From the NCBI GenBank assembly GCA_035995165.1, contig DASYKU010000129.1, forward strand, positions 1 to 40,935: a DNA stretch of 40,935 bases. The letters are read 5' to 3'. The DNA is from Mycobacteriales bacterium (lineage in GTDB: Bacteria > Actinomycetota > Actinomycetes > Mycobacteriales > CADCTP01). Under the pieces are notes generated by a model, which was not told where the DNA came from, made no database searches, and saw only the letters and a list, made by a program, of their open reading frames with translations. Positions 13,629 to 40,285 of this stretch are shown here, one piece after another (position 1 is the first letter of the stretch; each line of letters starts with the position of its first letter). The translations under genes were made by a program, and so were the position numbers.

Positions 13629-13745
13629 GACTTGCGGGCCGTTCGGGTGAAACCGCTCTGCCCCAACGTGAAGACATCCCCTAGGCTCTTCGCTCAGATG
13701 ACGATCTGCATCAGACTGGGCGGGGAGCCTCCAGGAGGTCGAGCG

Positions 13746-14984
13746 GTGACGGTCGAAGAGAGCAAGCGCGGGTTACCGGCTGGGCCGGCGACCTATCGTG
13801 CGCTGTTCTCCGAGGGCCAGTTCCGCTCCCTCTGGCTGGCCTCTGCGATCTCGCTGACCGGCGACCAGCTGGCCCGCGTCGCGATCGCCTCGCTGGTCTA
13901 CGACCGGACCCATTCGGCCCTGGTCACCGCGCTCGTCTACGCGGTCACCTACCTCCCCTGGCTGATCGGCGGTCCGCTGCTCGGCGGCCTGGCCGACCGC
14001 TACCCCCGCCGCACGGTCATGCTGATCTGCCAGCTGACCAGCGCCGTGCTGGTGGCGCTCATGGCGGTGCCGGGGATGCCCCTGGTGGCCTTGGCGTCGC
14101 TGCTGTTCGTCGTGATCCTGGTCGAGTCGCCGTTCCTGTCGGCCCGGGCGTCGCTGCTCGTCGACATCCTTCCCGACGACCGGTACGTGCTGGCCTCGGC
14201 GATCAACCAGCTCACCATCCAGGGCACCCAGGTGCTCGGCTTCGCCGTGGGCGGCGCGCTGGTCCTGCTCGTCGGCGCGCCCGACGCGCTGCTCGTGGAC
14301 GCGGTGTCGTTCCTGCTCGCCGGCGCGTTCGTCCGCTTCGGGGTCCGTCCCCGGCGTGCGGTCGCCGTCGCCGGGCAGCTCGGCGGCAGCTGGGAGCGGA
14401 TGAAGGTCGGGGCCAAGGTGGTCTTCGGCGATCCGCGGCTGCGCGGGCTGGTCCTGCTGGGCTGGCTGGCCACCTTCTGGGTGGTCCCGGAGGGCCTCGC
14501 CGCGCCGTACGCGGACGGCAACTCCACCTCGATCGGGCTGCTCCTCGCGGCCCAGCCCGCCGGCTCCGTGGTCGGCGGGATCGTGCTGAGCCGGCTGGTC
14601 CGGCCCACCACCCGGCTCGAGCTGATGGGTTGGCTGGCGATCCTGAGCTCGGCGCCGCTGCTGTTCTTCCTCGCGACCCCGTCCATCCCGGTCGCGGTCG
14701 TCCTTCTCGTGGTCTCAGGCGTCGGGACCACGTACAACCTGCCGGCCAACGCGGCGTTCATGCAGGCTCTGCCGGCGGAGCGACGCGGCCAGGCGTTCGG
14801 GCTGGTGTCCGCCGGCCTGGTTGCCGGACAGGGCATCAGCATCGCCGTGGCCGGCGCGGTCGCCGAGGCGACCTCGCCCAGCCTGGTCATCTGCGTCGCC
14901 GGCGGGCTCGGCCTCGTCGCGGCACTCGCGCTCAGCGGCGCGGGCCGGCGGTTCCTCTCGACGCCGTCGCCTGCGGTGGGCTGA
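13746..14984 (+). CDS. MFS transporter, EntS-like exporter type
   Basis: A 412-residue major facilitator with about 12 hydrophobic helices, of the MFS_3 group that includes the enterobactin exporter EntS and macrolide exporters. The loop 2-3 signature GGLADRYPRRTVML is clear, and the FRSLWLASAISLTGDQL start is typical of the group. I chose GTG 13746 because AGGAGG lies eight bases upstream; earlier in-frame starts lack such a site. TAGGCT at 13682-13687 may be a -10 element, but no -35 fits it. The gene is followed by a hairpin and then, on the same strand, by the SNGWG minigene array. The substrate is unknown. Confidence 0.9.
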   Translation: MTVEESKRGLPAGPATYRALFSEGQFRSLWLASAISLTGDQLARVAIASLVYDRTHSALVTALVYAVTYLPWLIGGPLLGGLADRYPRRTVMLICQLTSAVLVALMAVPGMPLVALASLLFVVILVESPFLSARASLLVDILPDDRYVLASAINQLTIQGTQVLGFAVGGALVLLVGAPDALLVDAVSFLLAGAFVRFGVRPRRAVAVAGQLGGSWERMKVGAKVVFGDPRLRGLVLLGWLATFWVVPEGLAAPYADGNSTSIGLLLAAQPAGSVVGGIVLSRLVRPTTRLELMGWLAILSSAPLLFFLATPSIPVAVVLLVVSGVGTTYNLPANAAFMQALPAERRGQAFGLVSAGLVAGQGISIAVAGAVAEATSPSLVICVAGGLGLVAALALSGAGRRFLSTPSPAVG

Positions 14985-14992
14985 CTCGGACC

Positions 14993-15020
14993 GCCTCAGC
15001 TAGCGGTGTTTTGCTGAGGC
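14993..15020 (+). terminator. Hairpin after the MFS gene
   Basis: GCCTCAGC (14993-15000) pairs perfectly with GCTGAGGC (15013-15020) across a 12-base loop, eight bases after the MFS stop. The following TTAAAAAC is not a real T-tract, so termination would be weak. It separates the MFS gene from the minigene array. Confidence 0.5.
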
Positions 15021-15033
15021 TTAAAAACAGTTG

Positions 15034-15064
15034 CGCCCGACGGCGGTGTACCGCCGAACGGGCG
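15034..15064. other. Strong compound hairpin upstream of the minigene array
   Basis: CGCCCG-A-CGGCGG pairs with CCGCCG-AA-CGGGCG around a TGTA tetraloop, giving 12 base pairs with a small bulge. On the + strand no T-run follows. On the - strand CTGTTTTTAA follows after a few bases, so it might be a leftward terminator, but no leftward gene ends here. The role is unclear. From 15065 to 15156 I see nothing else definite. Confidence 0.5.
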
Positions 15065-15156
15065 TAAACCTACGCTCAAACACAACCGTACGGGGCGGCG
15101 TAGTCCCTGTACGCCTCCCTGCCCTCTCGTGCCCCGACAAAAGGGGGGTGTTCTGC

Positions 15157-15186
15157 ATGCGCTTCGACAGCAACGGATGGGGCTGA
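15157..15186 (+). CDS. SNGWG minigene 1 (MRFDSNGWG)
   Basis: A nine-codon ORF with an ATG start, encoding MRFDSNGWG and ending in TGA. AAGGGGGG ends eight bases before the ATG. It is the first of six ORFs sharing the C-terminal pentapeptide SNGWG. Its first Gly codon in NGWG is GGA, where the four hexapeptide copies use GGC, a synonymous difference that argues for selection on the peptide. The longer N-terminus (MRFD) resembles the last copy (MRD) and not the middle four. Confidence 0.65.
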   Translation: MRFDSNGWG

Positions 15187-15235
15187 GCCGTCCGCGCACC
15201 CGCGCACGCCCACATGACCCCGTGAGGAGGCGGCC

Positions 15236-15256
15236 ATGAGCAACGGCTGGGGCTGA
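15236..15256 (+). CDS. SNGWG minigene 2 (MSNGWG)
   Basis: A six-codon ORF (ATG start, TGA stop) encoding MSNGWG. GAGGAGG ends five bases before the ATG, an excellent ribosome-binding site. It begins 79 bases after minigene 1. The spacer has no similarity to other spacers apart from the ribosome-binding site. Confidence 0.7.
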   Translation: MSNGWG

Positions 15257-15298
15257 ACCGCACTGACCCGAACCGCACCGCCGAGGAAGGAGACCGGC

Positions 15299-15319
15299 AT
15301 GAGCAACGGCTGGGGCTGA
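15299..15319 (+). CDS. SNGWG minigene 3 (MSNGWG)
   Basis: A six-codon ORF (ATG start, TGA stop) encoding MSNGWG, with AAGGAGA ending five bases before the start. The period from copy 2 is 63 bases. Coding bases are identical to copy 2, but the upstream spacer is unrelated. Confidence 0.7.
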   Translation: MSNGWG

Positions 15320-15359
15320 ACCACCCGAACGATCCGGATCGGCACAAGGAGGTGGCCTC

Positions 15360-15380
15360 GTGAGCAACGGCTGGGGCTGA
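15360..15380 (+). CDS. SNGWG minigene 4 (MSNGWG, GTG start)
   Basis: A six-codon ORF encoding MSNGWG with GTG in place of ATG, a substitution expected only if the codon acts as an initiator. The ribosome-binding site AAGGAGGT is a perfect anti-16S match, six bases before the start. The spacer from copy 3 contains the palindrome CGATCCGGATCG (15330-15341). Confidence 0.7.
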   Translation: MSNGWG

Positions 15381-15428
15381 ACGGTGACGCACTTATGTAC
15401 CACACCAGACTATCGAGAGGAACCGCTC

Positions 15429-15449
15429 GTGAGCAACGGCTGGGGCTGA
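15429..15449 (+). CDS. SNGWG minigene 5 (MSNGWG, GTG start)
   Basis: A six-codon ORF encoding MSNGWG from GTG, with GAGAGGAA ending six bases upstream. It is followed by a small GC hairpin (CGGGTCC/GGACCCG, 15455-15470), which may terminate or stabilise a transcript covering copies 1-5. Confidence 0.68.
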   Translation: MSNGWG

Positions 15450-15522
15450 CCCCCCGGGTCCCCGGACCCGACCCGACTCGAGACGTCCCCCCGTCCCGTG
15501 TACGCAGAGGAGGCGATCACGC

Positions 15523-15549
15523 ATGCGCGACAGCAACGGTTGGGGCTGA
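15523..15549 (+). CDS. SNGWG minigene 6 (MRDSNGWG)
   Basis: An eight-codon ORF encoding MRDSNGWG. AGAGGAGG ends nine bases before the ATG. The first Gly codon of NGWG is GGT, a third synonymous variant after GGA in copy 1 and GGC in copies 2-5. It is the last copy, 144 bases before the GGDEF-EAL gene on the same strand. Confidence 0.65.
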   Translation: MRDSNGWG

Positions 15550-15693
15550 TCCGCCCCGAGATGCATGCGGTGGGTGACGGGTCGTACCAATTGGAACGGC
15601 CCGTGTCCCCCGACCGGTGCATATACAGACAAGACATGCGGGCTTAAGAGTCAGCGCCGCTACGATTGTCGTACATGCCGTAGGGAGCGATCT

Positions 15694-18153
15694 GTGCCAG
15701 CCACCCCCGCTCGACCGCAACCCGGACTGCCGCTGTCCGTTCGGGTGCTGACGGGCGCGCTGGCCGTGGTTGCGGCCGTCTTCCTGGCGGCGAGCCTGCG
15801 GGTGGGCCTGATCGGGACGCAACCGGCCTGGTGGCGGTTCATCGCCTGCGCCGGCCTGTTCGTGCTCGCCGGCGTCGCGTCCTTCTCGATGCGGGTCGGC
15901 AGCCACCGGGTGCTGTTCTGGTGGACCGAGGTCGCGGTCGTGCTCAGCCTGGTGATGCTGCCGGTCGGCTGGGTGGTGCCCGCTACCGCGTTCGGCGCCC
16001 TGGCCAAGGCCTTCCGGTTCCGGCACCAGCCGGTGAAGGCCCTTTTCAACTTCTCCTTGGACGTCGCCGCGGTCGGCCTGACCGTCCTGCTGCTGGGTCT
16101 GTTCCGGGATCGTCCGCTGAACATCGCCAGCGCCGCCGACCTGACCGCGGTCGTGATCGTCACGGTCGCGTACAGCCAGCTCACCGAGGTGTTCACGGCG
16201 CTGGTCGTCGGGCTCTCGCAGAGCCGGTCGCCGTTCGCGGTCTACCGCAGCGCGCTCGGCATCAACCTGGTCAGCCAGGCCGGCAACGTCGCGGCCGCGA
16301 TCGTCGCGGTCATGCTGGTGCGCTTCGACCCGCGGGTGCTGGTCGTGCTGCCGCCGCTGGCCTTCTGCCTCCAGCAGGCGTACGAGGCCAGGCTGCGCGG
16401 GCGCGAGGAGCGGGAGTCCTGGCAGGGCCTGCTGGACGCGACCCGGTCGCTGTCGGACCTGGACGAGCGGGTCGTGCTGGTCCGGGCCGCGGCGGAGGCC
16501 ACCCGGCTGTTCAGCGCCGACCGGGCCGAGATCGAGCTGGCCGACGGCCGGCTGGTGCGCGGCGACACGCAGGGCGTCAGCTACGACGGGCCGGCCGCGG
16601 AGGCCGGCGCCGACGAGGCCCCGGTGGCCACCGTCGAGCGGCCGATCGGCGCGCAGACGCCGCCGCTGGGGGTCCTGCGGCTGTGCTTCACCGCCCCGAT
16701 CTCGCTCAGCGACCGGGAGCAGGCGATGCTCGGCGCGGTCGCGGCCGAGCTGCACTCCGCGCTGGTCAACGCCGGGCGGCACGCGACCGCGCGGCACGAG
16801 GCCACCCACGACCCGCTCACCGACCTGCTCAACCGGGCCGGCCTGCTGGTCGAGGGCCGGACCCGGCTGGCCGCCGCGGCGGCGGCCGAGGTCGACGCGG
16901 CGGTCCTGCTCATCGACATCAGCGGCTTCCGGGAGATCATCGACACCCTCGGCCACGCCGCCGGTGACGCCGTGCTGCAGCACACCGCCCGCCGGCTCGA
17001 GGCCGCGGTGCTGCCGGGCGAGCTGGTGGCCCGGCTGGAGGGCGACGAGTTCGTCGTGCTGCTGCCGAAGCTCACCGACCCGACCCAGGCCTCGCACCGG
17101 GCCGACACGCTGCTCGGGGCGGTCGCCAGCCCGGCCACCATCGGCGGGGCCGGGCTGACGCTGACCGGGGTCGCCGGGATCGCGTACGCGCCCGGTGGCA
17201 GCGGCAACCTCGAGGAGCTGCTGCGGCAGGCCGGCGTCGCGCTGCACGCGGTGCACAGCGCGGTGGGCCGGATCGACTTCTACGCGCCCGAGCGGGACGT
17301 ACGCAGCGTGAGCCGGCTCGTGCTGGCCAGCGAGCTGCGCATCGCGCTGCAGGACATGGACCAGATCGAGCTGCTCTACCAGCCGATCATCGACCTCAAC
17401 ACCGGTGAGGCGCTCTCGGCCGAGGCGCTGGTCCGCTGGCACCACCCGGCCCGCGGGCCGCTCGCGCCGGAGGACTTCCTGCCAGTGGTCGAGCACGCCG
17501 GGCTGCTGCCGGATCTGACCCGCCGGGTGCTGGACATCGCGCTCGGCAGCGCCGCGGACTGGACCCGGCAGGGCAGCGACGCCCCGGTCGCGATCAACGT
17601 CTCGCCGCGGACGCTGCTGGACCGCGACTTCCCGGGCGAGGTCGCGGCCGCGCTGTCCCGGCACCGGGTCGCGGCCGGCCGGCTCACGCTGGAGATCACC
17701 GAGACCTCGGTGGTCAGCCACCTGGCCGTGGTCGACCGGGTCCTGGACGAGCTGCGCGACCTCGGGGTCCGGCTCTCGCTGGACGACTTCGGCACCGGCT
17801 GGAGCTCACTGTCGCACCTGGCCCGGCTGCCCGTGCACGAGGTGAAGATCGCGGCCACGTTCACCGAGCGGCTGCTCTCCTCGCCGCAGGCGGCGGCGGT
17901 GGTGCGGGGGACGCTGGAGATCGCCCGGGCGCTGGACCTGCGGGTCGTGGCCGAAGGCGTGACCGGCGCGATCCAGCGGGGCATGCTGATCTCGCTCGGC
18001 TGCCACGCCGGGCAGGGCGACCACTTCTTCCCGCCGCTGCCGGCCGACCGGATCGGCCCGGCGCTGTGGAGCTCGACGGTCCGGGCGGCGGCGTCGTCCG
18101 AGGGCGCCGACATCATCCCGCTCTCCCAGCGCCGCCTGAACCGCGAGTACTAG
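15694..18153 (+). CDS. Membrane GGDEF-EAL protein (likely c-di-GMP phosphodiesterase)
   Basis: An 819-residue protein. Residues ~12-230 hold six to eight hydrophobic helices of a MASE-like sensor, ~245-365 is a GAF-like region, ~370-535 GGDEF and ~550-805 EAL. The cyclase site is degenerate. The signature reads EGDEF (449-453), the guanine-contacting Asn of FKxIND is Ile (FREIID), and there is no RxxD inhibitory site. The EAL domain keeps AEALVRW, INVSP, the DDFGTG loop and VVAEGVT. Breakdown of c-di-GMP is therefore more likely than synthesis. GTG 15694 is chosen because AGGGAG lies six bases upstream; an open frame continues upstream into noncoding sequence. The SNGWG array precedes it; the 144-base gap shows no clear promoter. 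Confidence 0.9.
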   Translation: MPATPARPQPGLPLSVRVLTGALAVVAAVFLAASLRVGLIGTQPAWWRFIACAGLFVLAGVASFSMRVGSHRVLFWWTEVAVVLSLVMLPVGWVVPATAFGALAKAFRFRHQPVKALFNFSLDVAAVGLTVLLLGLFRDRPLNIASAADLTAVVIVTVAYSQLTEVFTALVVGLSQSRSPFAVYRSALGINLVSQAGNVAAAIVAVMLVRFDPRVLVVLPPLAFCLQQAYEARLRGREERESWQGLLDATRSLSDLDERVVLVRAAAEATRLFSADRAEIELADGRLVRGDTQGVSYDGPAAEAGADEAPVATVERPIGAQTPPLGVLRLCFTAPISLSDREQAMLGAVAAELHSALVNAGRHATARHEATHDPLTDLLNRAGLLVEGRTRLAAAAAAEVDAAVLLIDISGFREIIDTLGHAAGDAVLQHTARRLEAAVLPGELVARLEGDEFVVLLPKLTDPTQASHRADTLLGAVASPATIGGAGLTLTGVAGIAYAPGGSGNLEELLRQAGVALHAVHSAVGRIDFYAPERDVRSVSRLVLASELRIALQDMDQIELLYQPIIDLNTGEALSAEALVRWHHPARGPLAPEDFLPVVEHAGLLPDLTRRVLDIALGSAADWTRQGSDAPVAINVSPRTLLDRDFPGEVAAALSRHRVAAGRLTLEITETSVVSHLAVVDRVLDELRDLGVRLSLDDFGTGWSSLSHLARLPVHEVKIAATFTERLLSSPQAAAVVRGTLEIARALDLRVVAEGVTGAIQRGMLISLGCHAGQGDHFFPPLPADRIGPALWSSTVRAAASSEGADIIPLSQRRLNREY

Positions 18154-30117: not shown

Positions 30118-31698
30118 ATGCCCGAGGACCGGCTCGCGGAGCGGCTGGCACAGGCCCGCCGCCTGGCCAGCGAGGCACGGCTGGACCGGCTCGACCAGGC
30201 GCTGGCCGGCCTGCGCGCCGACGCCGTCACCGACGGCGGCGTGCCGGCCGACCTGGAGATCGAGTTCGCGGTCATCCGCTCGGCCGCGCTGCTGAACCTG
30301 GAGCGGCCGGCCGAGGCCTGGGACGTGCTGCAGGGCGTGCTGGGCCGGCTCGACGAGGCCACGCCGACCATGCAGGCCCGGTTGCACGCGATGTCCGGCG
30401 GCGCGGCGTACTGGTTCGGCGACCACGACACGGCCATCGACGAGACCGTGCTCGCGCTCGCGGTGCTGGCCGACGTACCGCCCTCGACCGAGCGGGCGAT
30501 GGCGACCGCGTCCTGCGGGCTGAACCTGGCCTACTGCCGGCTGTTCCCGCTCGCCGCCGAGGTGCTCGGACAGGCCCTCGACGTCGCCGCCGCGGTCTCG
30601 ATGCCGTCCGGCCGGCTGCACGCCCAAGCCCAGTACGTGCAGCTCACCTGGGGTATGAGCCTGGACCACCTCGGCCTGGCCGAGGACCGCGACCGGTGCT
30701 GGGAGGCGGTCGTCCGGCACCACGCGCTGGCCGTCGCCGACGGCGGGCTGCCGGACATGATGCTGGCCCTCTCGCACGCCGAACGGGCCCTGCTGGCCGG
30801 CCGGCTCGGCGACGCCGCCACCGCCCGGGACGGGCTGCGCCGGGCCGAGGCCGTCCCGGTCGGGGCCCGCTCGCCCTCGCTGGTCCGGCTGCTCGCGCAC
30901 GCCGAGGGTGCGGCGCTGTTCGCCGAGGGCCGGCTCGACGACGCCCGGCGGACCCTGCTGCGGCTGTGGGACTCGGTCCGGGAGCGGACCGTGCCGGTGC
31001 GGACCGACGACGTCCCGCTGCTGCTGGCCCGGGTGGACGAGGCCGCCGGCCGGCCCGCCGACGCGCTGCGCTGGTACCGGGTGGTCTACGGCCGCTACGG
31101 CCGGACCCAGCAGGAGAGCTGGCAGGCCCGGGAGACCGCGGCCCGGCTCAAGGTCGAGCAGGAGGCGCTGCTGCGCCGCAGCCGGGAGCTGGAGGCCGAC
31201 ACGCTGACCGACCCGCTGACCGGGCTGCCGAACCGGCGCGCGCTGGACGCCGAGCTGGCCACGCTGATCCCGGCCGTGCAGGCGGCCGGCGAGCCGTTCG
31301 CGCTGGCCGTGCTGGACGTGGACCGGTTCAAGTGGATCAACGACGAGCACGGCCACCCGATCGGTGACGAGGTGCTCCGGATCATCGGCCGGGTGCTGCG
31401 GGAGCGCTGCGAGGAGTGCGACCGCTTCGCCCGGTACGGCGGGGACGAGTTCGTGCTCTGCGTCCCGGCGCCGCTGGACCAGGCCCGGGCCGCGATCGCG
31501 GCCGTCGTCGCCGTGGTGGCCGGCCAGGACTGGTCCGAGATCTCGCCCCGCCTGCGGGTGACGATCGGCTGGGGCATCGCCGCGCTCGGCCCGGACGACA
31601 CCGCGACCAGCCTCTTCGAGGCGGCCGACCGGGAACTGCTGGCGGCCAAGCGGGGCCGGCGGCATCTGGAGCCGGTCCCGGCCGCGGCGGACCTATAG
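30118..31698 (+). CDS. Helical-repeat GGDEF diguanylate cyclase, first of a tandem pair
   Basis: A 526-residue soluble protein. Residues ~1-355 are alpha-helical with TPR-like pairs (AEAWDVLQGVLGRLDEA, ALLAGRLGDAATARDGL, LFAEGRLDDARRTLLRL), and ~370-520 are a GGDEF domain. All catalytic features are intact: LDVDRFKWINDEHGH with the guanine-contact Asn, and RYGGDEF. The inhibitory RxxD site five residues before GGDEF is absent (EECD), so product inhibition there is unlikely. The repeat domain presumably binds a peptide or protein signal; no transmembrane segment is present. The downstream gene is a paralogue in the same orientation beginning within about 25 bases. The start is likely leaderless. 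Confidence 0.93.
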   Translation: MPEDRLAERLAQARRLASEARLDRLDQALAGLRADAVTDGGVPADLEIEFAVIRSAALLNLERPAEAWDVLQGVLGRLDEATPTMQARLHAMSGGAAYWFGDHDTAIDETVLALAVLADVPPSTERAMATASCGLNLAYCRLFPLAAEVLGQALDVAAAVSMPSGRLHAQAQYVQLTWGMSLDHLGLAEDRDRCWEAVVRHHALAVADGGLPDMMLALSHAERALLAGRLGDAATARDGLRRAEAVPVGARSPSLVRLLAHAEGAALFAEGRLDDARRTLLRLWDSVRERTVPVRTDDVPLLLARVDEAAGRPADALRWYRVVYGRYGRTQQESWQARETAARLKVEQEALLRRSRELEADTLTDPLTGLPNRRALDAELATLIPAVQAAGEPFALAVLDVDRFKWINDEHGHPIGDEVLRIIGRVLRERCEECDRFARYGGDEFVLCVPAPLDQARAAIAAVVAVVAGQDWSEISPRLRVTIGWGIAALGPDDTATSLFEAADRELLAAKRGRRHLEPVPAAADL

Positions 31699-31723
31699 TC
31701 CAGTGAGCAGGAAGGAGTCCGGT

Positions 31724-33271
31724 TTGCTCCAGGCACGCCGCGATCTCCGCCCGGAGCGGGTCACCTCAGCCAGGGGACTTGCCGGCGAGGGTCGCATCGA
31801 CGACCTGCGCGCCGCCGTGGCCGAGCTGCGCGACGATCCTGAGCTGACCGCGGACGAGGGGCTCGAGCTCGGGATGGCGCTGGCCGTCGCGCTGACCAAT
31901 GCCGAGGATTTCGCCGCCGCGCGCGCGGAGCTGGACCGGGTCCGGCCGCTGCTGCCCGAGGTGTCCGCGCTGGCCGCGGCCCAGTTCCACACCTGCGTCG
32001 GCATCTCCGCGGACGGCGAGGGCGATGAGGCGATCGGCAGCATCGTGCTCGCGCTGGCCTCGGTGGAGTCGGTCAGCGAGGCCAGCCGCGACCTGGCCCT
32101 GGTGCTGCGCAACTGCGGCATGCGGCTGGCGATGGAGCAGCTGTTCCCGCTCGCGGTCGAGACGACCCAGCGGGCGGTCGCGGTCGCCGCCGCGGCCGGG
32201 CTGTCGCCGGGTGCCTGGCAGCAGGCGGTCGGCTACGCGATGCTCTGCTGGGCGATGCGGCTGGAGCACCTCGGCCAGGAGGAGGAGGCCCGGGCCCGCT
32301 GGCTGGACGCCGAGAAGCAGCTGTCCGGGGCGCTGGCCGACCCGGAGATGGGGCTGTTGCCCGGCGCGCTGGTCCGGGCCAACCGGGCGCTGGTGCTGGC
32401 CCGCCTCGGCGACGCCCGCGGCGCCCGCCGGTCGCTGGAGCAGTCCCGGGACACTCCGGCCCGGCCGGTCACCTCGCTGCTGCGCCGGCGCCGGCTGCAC
32501 GCGGAGTGCGTCGTACTGGTCGCCGAGGGCCGGCTGGAGGAGGCCCGGCACCTGCTCACCGCGTACTGGCAGGAGGCCTCGGGGCAGCGCACCCCGCCCT
32601 TCGCCGAGGACGGCGCGTTCCTGCTGGCCGCGGTGGCCGAGGAGGACGGGCGGCCGGCCGACGCGCTGCGCTGGTACCGCGAGGTGCACGAGCGCTACGG
32701 CCGGGCCCAGTACGAGGTGTGGGTCAGCCGGGCGGCCGCGGCCCGGCTGCGGGTCGACCAGGAGGCGCTGCTGCGCCGGGCCCAGCAGCTGGAGTACGAC
32801 GCGCTGTCCGACCCGCTGACCGAGGTGCCGAACCGGCGGGCGTTCGACGCGAACCTGCCCCGGCTGGTCGGGGACGCGCAGGCGGCGGGGTCGCCGCTGA
32901 CGCTGGCGATCCTGGACGTGGACCGCTTCAAGCGGGTCAACGACAGCCACGGCCACCTGGTCGGCGACGAGGTGCTGCGGACCGTGGCCCGGCTGCTGAA
33001 GGAGCACATCCGTACGGCCGACCGGTGCGCGCGCTACGGCGGGGACGAGTTCGTGCTCTGCCTGCCGGCCGGGACGCGGGAGGCGGCCGCGGCGGTGGCC
33101 CGGATCGTGCGGGCGGTGGCGACCTACGACTGGGCCGAGGTGGCGGACGGGCTGAGCGTCACCGTGACCGCGGGGCTGGCCGAGCTCGGGGCGGCCGACA
33201 CGGCCAGCACGTTGTTCTGGACCGCGGACCAGAGCCTGCTCGCCGCCAAACGCTCCCGCCCACCCGGCTGA
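31724..33271 (+). CDS. Helical-repeat GGDEF diguanylate cyclase, second of a tandem pair
   Basis: A 515-residue paralogue of the preceding gene with the same plan: an alpha-helical TPR-like N-terminus (~1-350) and a C-terminal GGDEF domain. The active site is complete (LDVDRFKRVNDSHGH, RYGGDEF). Unlike its neighbour it keeps the RxxD inhibitory site (RTAD, five residues before GGDEF), so it should be feedback-inhibited by c-di-GMP. I place the start at TTG 31724, six bases after AAGGAG; a GTG at 31703 lies before that site and has none of its own. Shared helical blocks (GRPADALRWYR, VDQEALLRR) show duplication. It converges on a leftward MFS gene; the 84-base gap is GC-rich with no clear terminator. 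Confidence 0.92.
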   Translation: MLQARRDLRPERVTSARGLAGEGRIDDLRAAVAELRDDPELTADEGLELGMALAVALTNAEDFAAARAELDRVRPLLPEVSALAAAQFHTCVGISADGEGDEAIGSIVLALASVESVSEASRDLALVLRNCGMRLAMEQLFPLAVETTQRAVAVAAAAGLSPGAWQQAVGYAMLCWAMRLEHLGQEEEARARWLDAEKQLSGALADPEMGLLPGALVRANRALVLARLGDARGARRSLEQSRDTPARPVTSLLRRRRLHAECVVLVAEGRLEEARHLLTAYWQEASGQRTPPFAEDGAFLLAAVAEEDGRPADALRWYREVHERYGRAQYEVWVSRAAAARLRVDQEALLRRAQQLEYDALSDPLTEVPNRRAFDANLPRLVGDAQAAGSPLTLAILDVDRFKRVNDSHGHLVGDEVLRTVARLLKEHIRTADRCARYGGDEFVLCLPAGTREAAAAVARIVRAVATYDWAEVADGLSVTVTAGLAELGAADTASTLFWTADQSLLAAKRSRPPG

Positions 33272-38073: not shown

Positions 38074-39150
38074 GTGCCGCCCTTCAGGATCGACGTGCCC
38101 GAGCCCGTGCTGGACGACCTGCGGGACCGGCTGACCCGCACCCGGTGGCCGGTCCCCGTGCGCGGGGTCGGCTGGGACCGCGGCACGGATCCCGGCTACC
38201 TGCACCACCTCGTCGAGTACTGGCGGGACGGGTACGACTGGCGGGCTCAGGAGACGGCGCTCAACGAGCTGTCCCACCACAAGGCCGACGGGCTGCACTT
38301 CGTGCACCAGCGGGCGGCGGACCCGGACGCGCCGGTGCTGCTGCTCCTGCACGGCTGGCCGGACTCGTTCCTGCGCTTCCGCCGGGTGCTGCCGCTGCTG
38401 ACCGACTTCCACGTGGTGGTGCCGTCACTGCCCGGCTACGGTTTCTCCGACCCGCCGACCGAACCCGGGCACGTCAGCCGGACCGCGATGGCGCAACGGA
38501 TGGCCGGCCTGATGGCGTCGCTCGGCCACGACCGGTATTTCCTGTCCGGCGGGGACATCGGCAGCGGCACCGCCGAGGCGCTGGCCGCCGCGCACCCGGA
38601 CCGGGTGGCCGGGCTGCACCTCACCGACCTGCCGCTCTGGCACCTGACCGGGCTCGATCCGGCCGCGTCGAGCGAGGCCGAGCGGGACTACCTGGCCGCC
38701 GCGGCGGACTGGCAGCGCCGCGAGGGCGCCTACCTGCAGCTCCAGGCGACCAAGCCGATGACCGCCGCGTACGGGCTGACCGACTCCCCGGCCGGGCTGG
38801 CGGCCTGGATCGTGGAGAAGCTGCGGGCCTGGAGCGACGACTTCAGCGCCACGTTCCCGCCGGACGAGGTCCTCACCCACGTCACCCTCTACTGGGTCAC
38901 CGGCACGATCGGCTCCTCGTTCGGTCCGTACGCGGAGCGGGAGACGGCGGCGCCGCACGGCCGGGTGACGGTGCCGGCCGCGGTGTCGCAGTTCCCGGCC
39001 GACACGCTCCGGGCGCCCCGGGAGTACGCGGAGCGGTTCCTGGACGTCCGGCAGTGGCGCGAGCACGAGCGCGGTGGCCACTTCGCCGCGCTGGAGGTCC
39101 CCGGCCTGTTCGCCGAGGATCTCCACGCGTTTCTGGCGGACCTCCGGTAG
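38074..39150 (+). CDS. Epoxide hydrolase (EHN-type alpha/beta hydrolase), copy 1
   Basis: A 358-residue alpha/beta hydrolase with the N-terminal EHN extension of microsomal-type epoxide hydrolases (FRIDVPEPVLDDLRDRL, TDPGYLHHLVEYWRDGYDWR). The oxyanion motif is LLHGWPDSFLRFRRVLPLL. The nucleophile is Asp161 in SGGDIGSGTAE, and the catalytic histidine is in RGGHFAALEVP. It would open epoxides to diols; the natural substrate is unknown. GTG 38074 starts four bases after the MFS stop. A close paralogue follows 49 bases downstream. Confidence 0.93.
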   Translation: MPPFRIDVPEPVLDDLRDRLTRTRWPVPVRGVGWDRGTDPGYLHHLVEYWRDGYDWRAQETALNELSHHKADGLHFVHQRAADPDAPVLLLLHGWPDSFLRFRRVLPLLTDFHVVVPSLPGYGFSDPPTEPGHVSRTAMAQRMAGLMASLGHDRYFLSGGDIGSGTAEALAAAHPDRVAGLHLTDLPLWHLTGLDPAASSEAERDYLAAAADWQRREGAYLQLQATKPMTAAYGLTDSPAGLAAWIVEKLRAWSDDFSATFPPDEVLTHVTLYWVTGTIGSSFGPYAERETAAPHGRVTVPAAVSQFPADTLRAPREYAERFLDVRQWREHERGGHFAALEVPGLFAEDLHAFLADLR

Positions 39151-39199
39151 CGCAAGCTGGAGGATCTGGCGGCCCCCGGAACCGGGCATAGTCGACGTC

Positions 39200-40285
39200 A
39201 TGGAGCCGTTCACGATCGACGTGCCGGAGACCGTGCTGGACGACCTGCGGGAGCGCCTGACGCGGACCCGATGGCCGGTCGCGGTGGCCGGGGTCGGCTG
39301 GGACCGCGGCACCGACTCCGACTACCTGCACCAGCTCGTCGAGCACTGGCGGGACGGCTACGACTGGCGGGCGCAGGAGGCCGAGCTCAACAAGCTGCCC
39401 CAGTACAAGCACGACGGCCTGCACTTCGTGTATCAGCCGGCGGTGGACCAGGACGCGCCGGTGCTGCTGCTGCTGCACGGCTGGCCGGACTCGTTCCTGC
39501 GCTTCCGCCGCGTGCTTCCGCTGCTCACCGACTTCCACGTCGTGGTGCCGTCGCTGCCCGGCTTCGGCTTCTCCGACGCCCCGACCGAGCCGGGCCGGTC
39601 GACCCCGACGGCGATGGCCGGGCGGCTCGCGGACCTGATGGCCGAGCTCGGGCACGACCGCTACCTGGTCTCCGGCGGCGACGTCGGCAGCGGCACCGCC
39701 GAGATCATGGCCCGGACGCACCCGGACCGGGTCGCCGGGCTGCACCTGACCGACCTGCCGATCTGGCATCTGCTCGGCGCCGACCCGGCCTCGCTGAGCG
39801 GGGCCGAGCAGGGCTACATGGCCGCGGGCATGGAGTGGATGCAGCGCGAGGGCGCGTACGTGCAGCTGCAGTCGACCAAGCCGATGACCGCCGCGTACGG
39901 GCTGACCGACTCGCCGGCCGGGCTGGCGGCCTGGATCGTGGAGAAGCTGCGGGCCTGGACCGAGGACTTCGACGCCACGTTCCCGCCGGACGAGGTCCTC
40001 ACCCACGTCACGCTCTACTGGGTCACCGGCACGATCGGCTCCTCCTTCGGCTCGTACGCGGAGCAGGACGGCCCGCCGGACTCCACCAAGCTGGCGGTGC
40101 CGACCGCGGTGTCGAACTTCCCGGGCGACCTGTTCGAGGGGCCGCGCGAGTACGCCGACCGGTTCTGGAACGTCCAGCAGTGGCGCACGCACGACCGCGG
40201 CGGCCACTTCGCCGCGCTGGAGGTCCCCGACCTGTTCGCCGAGGACCTCCGCGCGTTCTCAGCGAGTGTGGTGGACGGGAGCTAG
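39200..40285 (+). CDS. Epoxide hydrolase (EHN-type alpha/beta hydrolase), copy 2
   Basis: A 361-residue tandem duplicate of the preceding gene. The first 170 residues align without gaps, with Asp161 again the nucleophile (SGGDVGSGTAE) and the histidine in RGGHFAALEVP. Differences cluster in the cap and C-terminal regions (GSYAEQDGPPDSTKL versus GPYAERETAAPHGRV), which may alter substrate choice. The ATG at 39200 has no ribosome-binding site; CATAGT lies seven bases before it, a possible imperfect -10. The last 27 bases overlap the convergent monooxygenase gene. Confidence 0.93.
   Translation: MEPFTIDVPETVLDDLRERLTRTRWPVAVAGVGWDRGTDSDYLHQLVEHWRDGYDWRAQEAELNKLPQYKHDGLHFVYQPAVDQDAPVLLLLHGWPDSFLRFRRVLPLLTDFHVVVPSLPGFGFSDAPTEPGRSTPTAMAGRLADLMAELGHDRYLVSGGDVGSGTAEIMARTHPDRVAGLHLTDLPIWHLLGADPASLSGAEQGYMAAGMEWMQREGAYVQLQSTKPMTAAYGLTDSPAGLAAWIVEKLRAWTEDFDATFPPDEVLTHVTLYWVTGTIGSSFGSYAEQDGPPDSTKLAVPTAVSNFPGDLFEGPREYADRFWNVQQWRTHDRGGHFAALEVPDLFAEDLRAFSASVVDGS

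Follow-up and report, generated by a model that had tools for sequence, protein, structure and literature searches.

Six short open reading frames (ORFs) in the window, the 40,935-nt stretch of the Mycobacteriales contig DASYKU010000129.1 that was analyzed at its whole length, belong to an apparently undescribed family of actinobacterial micro-genes, here called W-minigenes after their near-terminal Trp codon. Comparison of related genomes shows the pattern of coding selection in these ORFs, and their loci are recurrently linked to MFS genes and to GGDEF or GGDEF-EAL genes, which suggest that an array may provide many copies of one trans-acting Trp peptide, carried or received by the MFS protein, with a c-di-GMP output from the GGDEF(-EAL) protein. 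We assign this reading a probability of roughly 0.55. No description of such genes was found in the open-access literature searched (subscription papers lay outside it), in line with the view of an earlier note on this DNA, made from its letters alone, that the family had no name.

The minigene array and its neighbours

The array spans 15157-15549, and its six ORFs, all on the forward strand and all ending in TGA, encode the peptides given by the earlier note, at the places given there (Table 1). That note had also proposed a Shine-Dalgarno (SD) sequence for each ORF; SD-like sequence does precede all six, with the weakest at the first copy. Repeat units are spaced 70, 63, 61, 69 and 100 nt apart, start to start. 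By eye, the copies share nothing but the SD and the ORF, and a longer repeat common to all copies was not found. The sole varying codon of the SNGWG core is that of Gly3, at its third base (GGA, GGC or GGT); the codon script for this core admitted synonymous change only, and direct reading of the sequence agrees. The pattern AGYAAYGGNTGGGGNTRR matched six times in the window and never in 100 dinucleotide shuffles, none of 500 dinucleotide shuffles of 14985-15694 passed the array criterion, and the pattern AAYGGNTGGGGNTGA matched six times in the window's own genome, every time in this array.

Table 1. Positions of the array, its neighbours and the related genes discussed in the text (window coordinates unless a locus is named)
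Feature	Position	Strand	Remarks
Minigene 1	15157-15186	+	MRFDSNGWG; weak SD (run of G), weakest of the six
Minigene 2	15236-15256	+	MSNGWG, ATG start; SD gaggagg
Minigene 3	15299-15319	+	MSNGWG, ATG start; SD aaggaga
Minigene 4	15360-15380	+	MSNGWG, GTG start; SD aaggaggtg
Minigene 5	15429-15449	+	MSNGWG, GTG start; SD gagagga
Minigene 6	15523-15549	+	MRDSNGWG, ATG start; SD gaggagg
Conserved block 5' of array	15027-15100	+	nearly identical in G001 though the array has diverged (by eye)
Hairpin 3' of array	15568-15612	+	-28.7 kcal/mol; z -3.0 against 15 mononucleotide shuffles
MFS transporter	13632-14984	+	directly 5' of array; Pfam MFS_1 and MFS_3
Membrane GGDEF-EAL protein	15694-18153	+	3' of array; same strand as MFS gene and array
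f28 fusion	L330:4054-7812		Pfam MFS and GGDEF-EAL
f28 fusion	L340:190-3969		Pfam MFS and GGDEF-EAL
f28 fusion	L341:445-4191		Pfam MFS and GGDEF-EAL
f28 fusion	L342:270-4055		Pfam MFS and GGDEF-EAL
f28 fusion	L343:193-4029		Pfam MFS and GGDEF-EAL
f28 fusion	L344:417-4169		Pfam MFS and GGDEF-EAL
GSAWT-repeat gene	L281:3788-5788	+	Peptidase_S8
GSAWT-repeat gene	L282:4494-6383	-	Peptidase_S8
GSAWT-repeat gene	L283:3717-5681	+	Peptidase_S8

The true start of the MFS gene probably lies within the tabulated ORF; its top NCBIfam model was TIGR00900, with a score under the cut-off of that model, and a PDB sequence search with the protein gave no match. The GGDEF-EAL protein has six hydrophobic segments within its first 210 aa and EAL-type motifs, and its GGDEF motif reads EGDEF. 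In the conserved block, a hairpin-like stretch (15035-15063) is followed by a -10-like hexamer, TACGCT, at 15071, and we infer a promoter or terminator role for the block; the hairpin 3' of the array is a possible terminator. Rfam searches of the window and 11 related loci returned no match at gathering scores. Elsewhere in the window, two tandem genes at 30118-33271, each with a GGDEF domain, form a second c-di-GMP locus, and two epoxide-hydrolase-like ORFs lie in tandem, overlapping, at 38074-40285.

Coding selection and the extent of the family

The earlier note took the fixed SNGWG C-terminus as the mark of the family and proposed a search of related genomes for SNGWG minigenes. Among 397 genomes of the order, the SNGWG pattern matched more than once only in the window's own genome, and a scan for MSNGWG-TGA across an 84,980-species collection (from which contigs shorter than 3 kb and the records of the window itself may be absent) gave 71 stretches from many phyla with one match each and none with two. 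A family defined by SNGWG was rejected, as no second multi-copy case was found in the genomes searched; read literally, this outcome is the one that the earlier note gave as refuting its reading. In related genomes, however, arrays of other peptides retain reading frame, SD sites and neighbouring genes: other species have the short length, Arg2 in the majority of members and a Trp that is penultimate or sometimes two from the end, whereas the other residues vary. The ORFs often read M-R-x-x-x-W-x-stop and occur as singletons or in arrays of up to 13.

The only other genome of the same genus in our samples, G001, carries ten minigenes at the equivalent place (MSLYGTHWG, MRFDGTHWG and eight copies of MQLDGTHWG), in the order MFS gene (by eye), near-identical leader block, array and GGDEF-EAL gene (75 percent identity). 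At the position of minigene 1 it has an ORF that starts MRLDG and reads on longer, which we took by eye as a degenerate copy. Comparison of the two genomes indicates that place, frame, SD sites and Trp-Gly-stop were kept while the peptide changed. A DNA pattern requiring a pair of Trp-Gly-stop ORFs separated by 45-75 nt, applied to the 397 genomes of the order, gave chained matches in two f1 genomes and in all four sampled genomes of genus g12 (family f12), which have seven minigenes each, encoding MRGATWG with the single variants MQGATWG, MSGATWG and MSRGAIWG; another f12 genome, G053, has the pair MRGTHWG and MERGTHWG. A same-strand GGDEF-EAL ortholog lies 3' of the minigenes in all seven f1/f12 genomes. 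The gene 5' of the f12 arrays has no match to the window's MFS protein, and from our reading of the neighbour sequences we take it to belong to an mca/greA neighbourhood. Other matches to the pair pattern were mostly single and chance by appearance; the chained matches in G275, G310 and G395 were rejected by eye as simple repeats or non-minigenes. In the scan of 394 class genomes described below, the pair pattern also matched, in G636, G651, G752, G732, G562, G536 and G778, regular repeats of ~61 nt ending GTGGGG[GA]TGA, which look CRISPR-like and are not minigenes.

Variation within these arrays falls mainly at third codon positions. Among four species of the one f12 genus, variable columns in the seven aligned minigenes came to 4/56 at first, 4/56 at second and 22/56 at third codon positions, in a count with no restriction to synonymous change; the same species had 133/220 variable columns in the spacers and 41/94 in the SD stretches. 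Neighbouring copies compared in 131 pairs across 23 arrays, pairs with different peptides included, differed 44, 52 and 150 times at the three positions. Of two sister genomes that encode MREHNWS, one spells its Ser as TCC or TCG and the other as AGC; the patterns behind these codon tables were mostly synonymous-only, and the evidence here lies in the free positions (Ser and codon 2) alone. The third-position variation, the use of both Ser codon families and the retention of SD and frame led us to reject a DNA or RNA element in place of a gene. The suggestion of the earlier note that such short ORFs can be real products is supported by the signature of coding selection.

Recurrent linkage to GGDEF(-EAL) and MFS genes

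A profile of the N-terminal region of the GGDEF-EAL protein (A1) was run against three samples of genomes: 61 relatives, 197 from the class and 61 from f15. Single W-minigenes were seen 5' of its matches in f5 (MERGDQWG, MERGDNWG), f13 (MTKTWG, MSLQKIWS), f43 (MSKMWA, MSKDWK), f46 (MRSTSWN) and f32 (MNAGVSWG), and they are widespread in f15; none was seen 5' of the GGDEF-EAL gene at L171 (f5), at L181 and L182 (f9) or at the weaker matches L183-L188. We read 76 upstream regions in f15 (73 of 102 profile places, the 29 left out being mostly the lowest-scoring, and three from G046/G055), of which a text pattern in the upstream translation placed 20 inside an mca-type setting and 56 outside it. 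Outside, a minigene lay upstream of 55/56 GGDEF-EAL orthologs, and an SD followed by a 5-11-codon ORF with penultimate Trp was found within 320 nt upstream in 50/56, compared to 24/5600 shuffles, 0/56 on the reverse strand and 2/55 in the next-upstream 320 nt. Five of the six misses (L174, L237, L238, L244 and L261) still carry an ORF whose SD is weak or whose start is longer, and the sixth, L239, where the region is cut by the contig end, has no minigene. Inside the mca-type setting, 2/20 regions had one. Penultimate Trp was a selection criterion for these region counts and for the peptide table; in a check without it, 51/65 SD mini-ORFs ending 55-200 nt before the gene had Trp at that position.

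In 57 of the 76 regions the chosen ORF (with 7-8-codon ORFs starting MR, MQ or MY preferred where several fitted) is on the same strand as the gene and ends 58-264 nt upstream of it. Its peptide has seven residues in 52/57, and these heptapeptides carry Arg2 in 48/52 and Asp or Glu at position 5 in 36/52, with 49/52 being distinct. Two sister genomes have arrays of 13 and 10 copies of MREHNWS/T. A strict SD+MR...W pattern gave 23 matches (22 distinct ORFs) in 17 of the 61 f15 genomes and none in reversed form; 21/22 of the ORFs lay at an A1 gene. The exception, in G607 (L298:5950-6029, minus strand), belongs to a tandem pair, MRGYDWS and MRGSGWG, upstream of what we take to be a TetR-like and an MFS-like gene.

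This f15 geometry, together with the penultimate Trp, would fit a cis-acting leader, in which ribosomes translating the ORF(s) would set the transcription or translation of the GGDEF-EAL gene that follows, through Trp-tRNA sensing or stalling, for instance, and the earlier note had listed a regulatory leader series among its readings. A hairpin with z <= -2 (15 mononucleotide shuffles each) follows the minigene at 9/62 loci, which also fits; a terminator after every minigene was rejected, such a clear hairpin being present at only these nine. Amino-acid attenuator leaders carry a run of codons for the sensed amino acid, whereas each window ORF has one Trp codon. Arrays of up to 13 copies with an SD for each and the 554 nt that separate ORF and gene in G053 likewise speak against a leader, and the loci described below, where the array is not in front of the GGDEF gene, make this reading improbable. 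As separate observations on the f15 regions, a GACATTTA-type motif precedes a TAGGCT/TACGCT hexamer upstream of minigenes (e.g., L222, L227 and L246) and is a possible operator or promoter of the minigene; as ACATTT, this motif occurs in 18/56 upstream regions against 1.2 expected from mononucleotide shuffles. A GGCTTAGCCTTCCGCCGGGGGG...GCGCGGAAGGGGG block was seen by eye 5' of minigene-less mca-type GGDEF-EAL paralogs (L191, L192 and L250), with no Rfam match at gathering score at L191 and L192.

For the MFS gene, a tandem-pattern scan of 394 class genomes led to G731 (f31), where three minigenes (MRIRREIEWG, MRIRRDVVWG and MRIRRDIEWG) lie directly 3' of an MFS gene 43 percent identical to that of the window; the 13.5 kb read there contained no BLAST match to the GGDEF-EAL proteins, which argues against a leader of such a gene. 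The window's MFS protein was then searched in 296 class genomes, and the best 29 loci besides the window were scanned. A W-minigene with penultimate Trp lay within 1.5 kb at nine of these best 29 (f21, one; f43, two; f34, six). A looser scan, in which single unlike ORFs at L306, L310, L311, L319 and L327 were left uncounted, added two f34 loci with Trp one place further in, L321 (three copies of MRDNKWSR) and L326 (MRDAHWES and MRDAHWNW), to give 11 of the best 29 and 8/8 in f34. By the strict criterion the remaining 18 of the best 29 (f31, 15/15; f25, 3/3) had no W-minigene, which indicates that the MFS family has other jobs too.

Further MFS loci scanned were 13 from f34, six fusion genes from f28 and two stretches at f25 genes among the best 29; these two additional f25 stretches had no W-minigene. 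Arrays were present at 12 of the 13 f34 loci, with L348 lacking one, and reached 13 copies (MRDTTWS, 12; MRDTTWR, 1), compared to 0/390 shuffles of these loci. In f34 as a whole, W-minigenes stand tail-to-tail with the ortholog of the window's MFS gene at 20/21 loci. Four genomes (G557, G512, G521 and G573) have two cassettes with different peptides. In f43, G484 has MFS gene, minigene and GGDEF-EAL gene on one strand in the order of the window, and contig 7 of G423 has a window-like order by coordinates. The f21 genome G401 has its MFS and GGDEF-EAL genes in divergent orientation, and the MPHNKIWT minigene between them shares the strand of the MFS gene. At five loci each of f12 and f15, the ~19-20 kb read contained nothing that matched the window's MFS protein.

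Gene maps were drawn for L297 and L329-L339. At six f34 loci (L333-L338, ~20 kb read) and at L339 of f43, the array faces the MFS gene tail-to-tail and, on its other side, stands head-to-head with a GGDEF gene (Pfam GGDEF, 7/7), an arrangement in which it is impossible for the array to be a leader of either gene. The order in the window would allow the ORFs to lie on the transcript of the GGDEF-EAL gene, whereas that in f34 and f43 would not, and the leader series of the earlier note fails there. The GGDEF proteins of L333-L339 match the window protein over 125-140 residues only, where BLAST reported the match, and the six that were scanned (all but that of L334) have 5-8 hydrophobic segments before or at the domain edge.

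The two partners also occur as one protein. Six f28 genes of 1248-1278 codons fuse MFS to GGDEF-EAL, with weak GAF matches, and all six have an opposite-strand W-minigene 0.1-1.2 kb beyond the 3' end (MQYGNAGWG, MQRHGTWGG, MQSGQGWG, MQKGHGWG, MQKGWQWG and MQYGNVGWG), compared to 15/600 shuffles and 0/6 on the same strand. Recurrent linkage of the predicted minigenes to MFS and GGDEF(-EAL) genes and the fusion of MFS to GGDEF-EAL are both evident from sequence. The loci were taken mostly by score, and relatives among them are not independent, although their peptides mostly differ. In a tree of 50 GGDEF-EAL proteins (50 of 63 rows; the 13 left out were mostly near relatives of kept rows), genes linked to minigenes occur to either side of the midpoint, and the well-supported branches require the array label to change three times or more, which indicates, at the level of sequence, that arrays formed repeatedly; L197 was entered in this tree as minigene-less, and MPHNKIWT adjoins it in divergent orientation.

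A candidate peptide signal and the alternatives

We propose that each 6-9-codon ORF would be translated from its own ribosome-binding site and that minigene copy number would set the peptide dose. The adjoining MFS protein may bind the peptide or move it across the membrane, and the adjoining membrane GGDEF(-EAL) protein may alter cyclic-di-GMP in response, such that peptide level (reflecting cell density, or self versus non-self) would feed a c-di-GMP decision. Translation, export, binding or sensing of the peptide and a change in c-di-GMP are all steps that we infer from gene content and arrangement. The peptide probably functions as a signal; that the c-di-GMP protein is its receptor is a guess. 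A seven-codon ORF may also favour repeated synthesis by one ribosome, adding to the effect of copy number; for microcin C such repeated synthesis on a seven-codon ORF is reported in vitro (PMC6495379). All 12 GGDEF-EAL proteins inspected have EAL-type motifs (a DDFG pattern missed two); the GGDEF motif is EGDEF in the two from f1 and HGDEF in three of the five from f12, and the EGDEF of the window protein would make phosphodiesterase output likelier there.

Two features of the loci fit a pheromone, namely a signal gene linked to a transporter and to a signal-transducing membrane protein (the transporter being missing at the f12 and f15 loci read), and a peptide that diversifies between species around a kept core, as in the f15 heptapeptides. 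Gram-positive short peptide pheromones (SHP/Rgg, PapR) have longer precursors and act through cytosolic regulators or histidine kinases; W-minigenes resemble them in the short, diversifying peptide with dedicated partners and differ in that the whole gene is a 6-9-codon ORF partnered by a membrane c-di-GMP enzyme. Yeast alpha-factor, a multi-copy peptide precursor, likewise repeats one short peptide, but the W-minigene copies are separate genes. Among the readings of the earlier note, a signal is the best supported here, with secretion putative, so that its interpretation as a whole is partly supported. Against the proposed signal stand the f12 and f15 loci with no nearby MFS match and the minigene-less f31, f25, mca-type f15 and GGDEF-EAL relatives, as do the absence of an export signal from the peptide and the small share of loci (9/62) with a clear hairpin behind the minigene.

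The f12 and f15 loci would equally suit an unmodified micropeptide that stays in the cell and regulates the MFS or GGDEF(-EAL) protein by binding it. The peptides have no export signal, and linkage and fusion suggest that these two proteins work together; recurrent MFS linkage and diversification (49/52 distinct) would better fit a secreted, typed signal, and we regard an intracellular regulator as unlikely.

A peptide antibiotic or modified peptide (microcin C-like or a minimal RiPP) for which the MFS protein would provide export and self-immunity, close to the RiPP precursor set suggested in the earlier note, seems more doubtful still. The mcc operon does include an MFS exporter. The microcin C precursor gene mccA has seven codons in most cases, a strong SD and a variable sequence of conserved length, and in these respects it resembles the W-minigenes (PMC6495379). 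Microcin C precursors end in Asn in that paper, whereas only 5/52 f15 heptapeptides do and the window peptides end in Gly; the fixed residue of the W-minigene family is Trp, the tandem copies number up to 13, and the recurrent partner is a c-di-GMP enzyme. Pfam found no ThiF-type adenylyltransferase (MccB), P450, radical SAM, YcaO or other dedicated tailoring enzyme among the 25 predicted window proteins, and no modifying enzyme among the few f15 neighbours put to it. The biarylitide precursor gene, which we take to be the bytA of the earlier note, is similarly tiny and encodes an aromatic residue, but has a partner of the P450 type that those window proteins lack. Biarylitide precursors have five residues, aromatic ones among them, and an 18-bp gene that evades annotation, and are paired with a crosslinking P450 (PMC13417212).

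W-minigenes are smaller than what annotation pipelines call, and the present loci suggest that short ORFs repeated in tandem can be genuine genes whose copy number is the likely dose. If they are tied to c-di-GMP enzymes, they would supply a missing kind of peptide input to c-di-GMP in actinobacteria, in some of which c-di-GMP controls development. Peptides of 6-9 residues can be synthesised, so the proposed signal is directly testable.

More tentatively, a class-wide actinobacterial signalling system is possible, although we hold it to be doubtful, in which a 6-9-residue Trp peptide, the direct product of a minigene and amplified by arrays of up to 13 copies, would be transported or sensed by the MFS protein (in one family fused to GGDEF-EAL) and read by the membrane c-di-GMP enzyme. 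One genome could then run at least two channels with different peptides, and a subtilase with ~20 GSAWT-type repeats may be a polyprotein signal where the minigene is absent, its gene taking the equivalent position in other families. Minigenes and subtilase both offer repeated short Trp units, a likeness that is suggestive only. Genes with GSAWT, GSSWT or GTAWT repeats and an FL.AFWG tail were observed directly 5' of GGDEF-EAL genes that had no visible minigene. Nine such loci, from f9, f25, f28 and f36 (L179, L180, L194, L196 and L199-L203), have an upstream gene that encodes a long GSAWT-type repeat instead, and the three such genes put to Pfam were all Peptidase_S8 subtilases.
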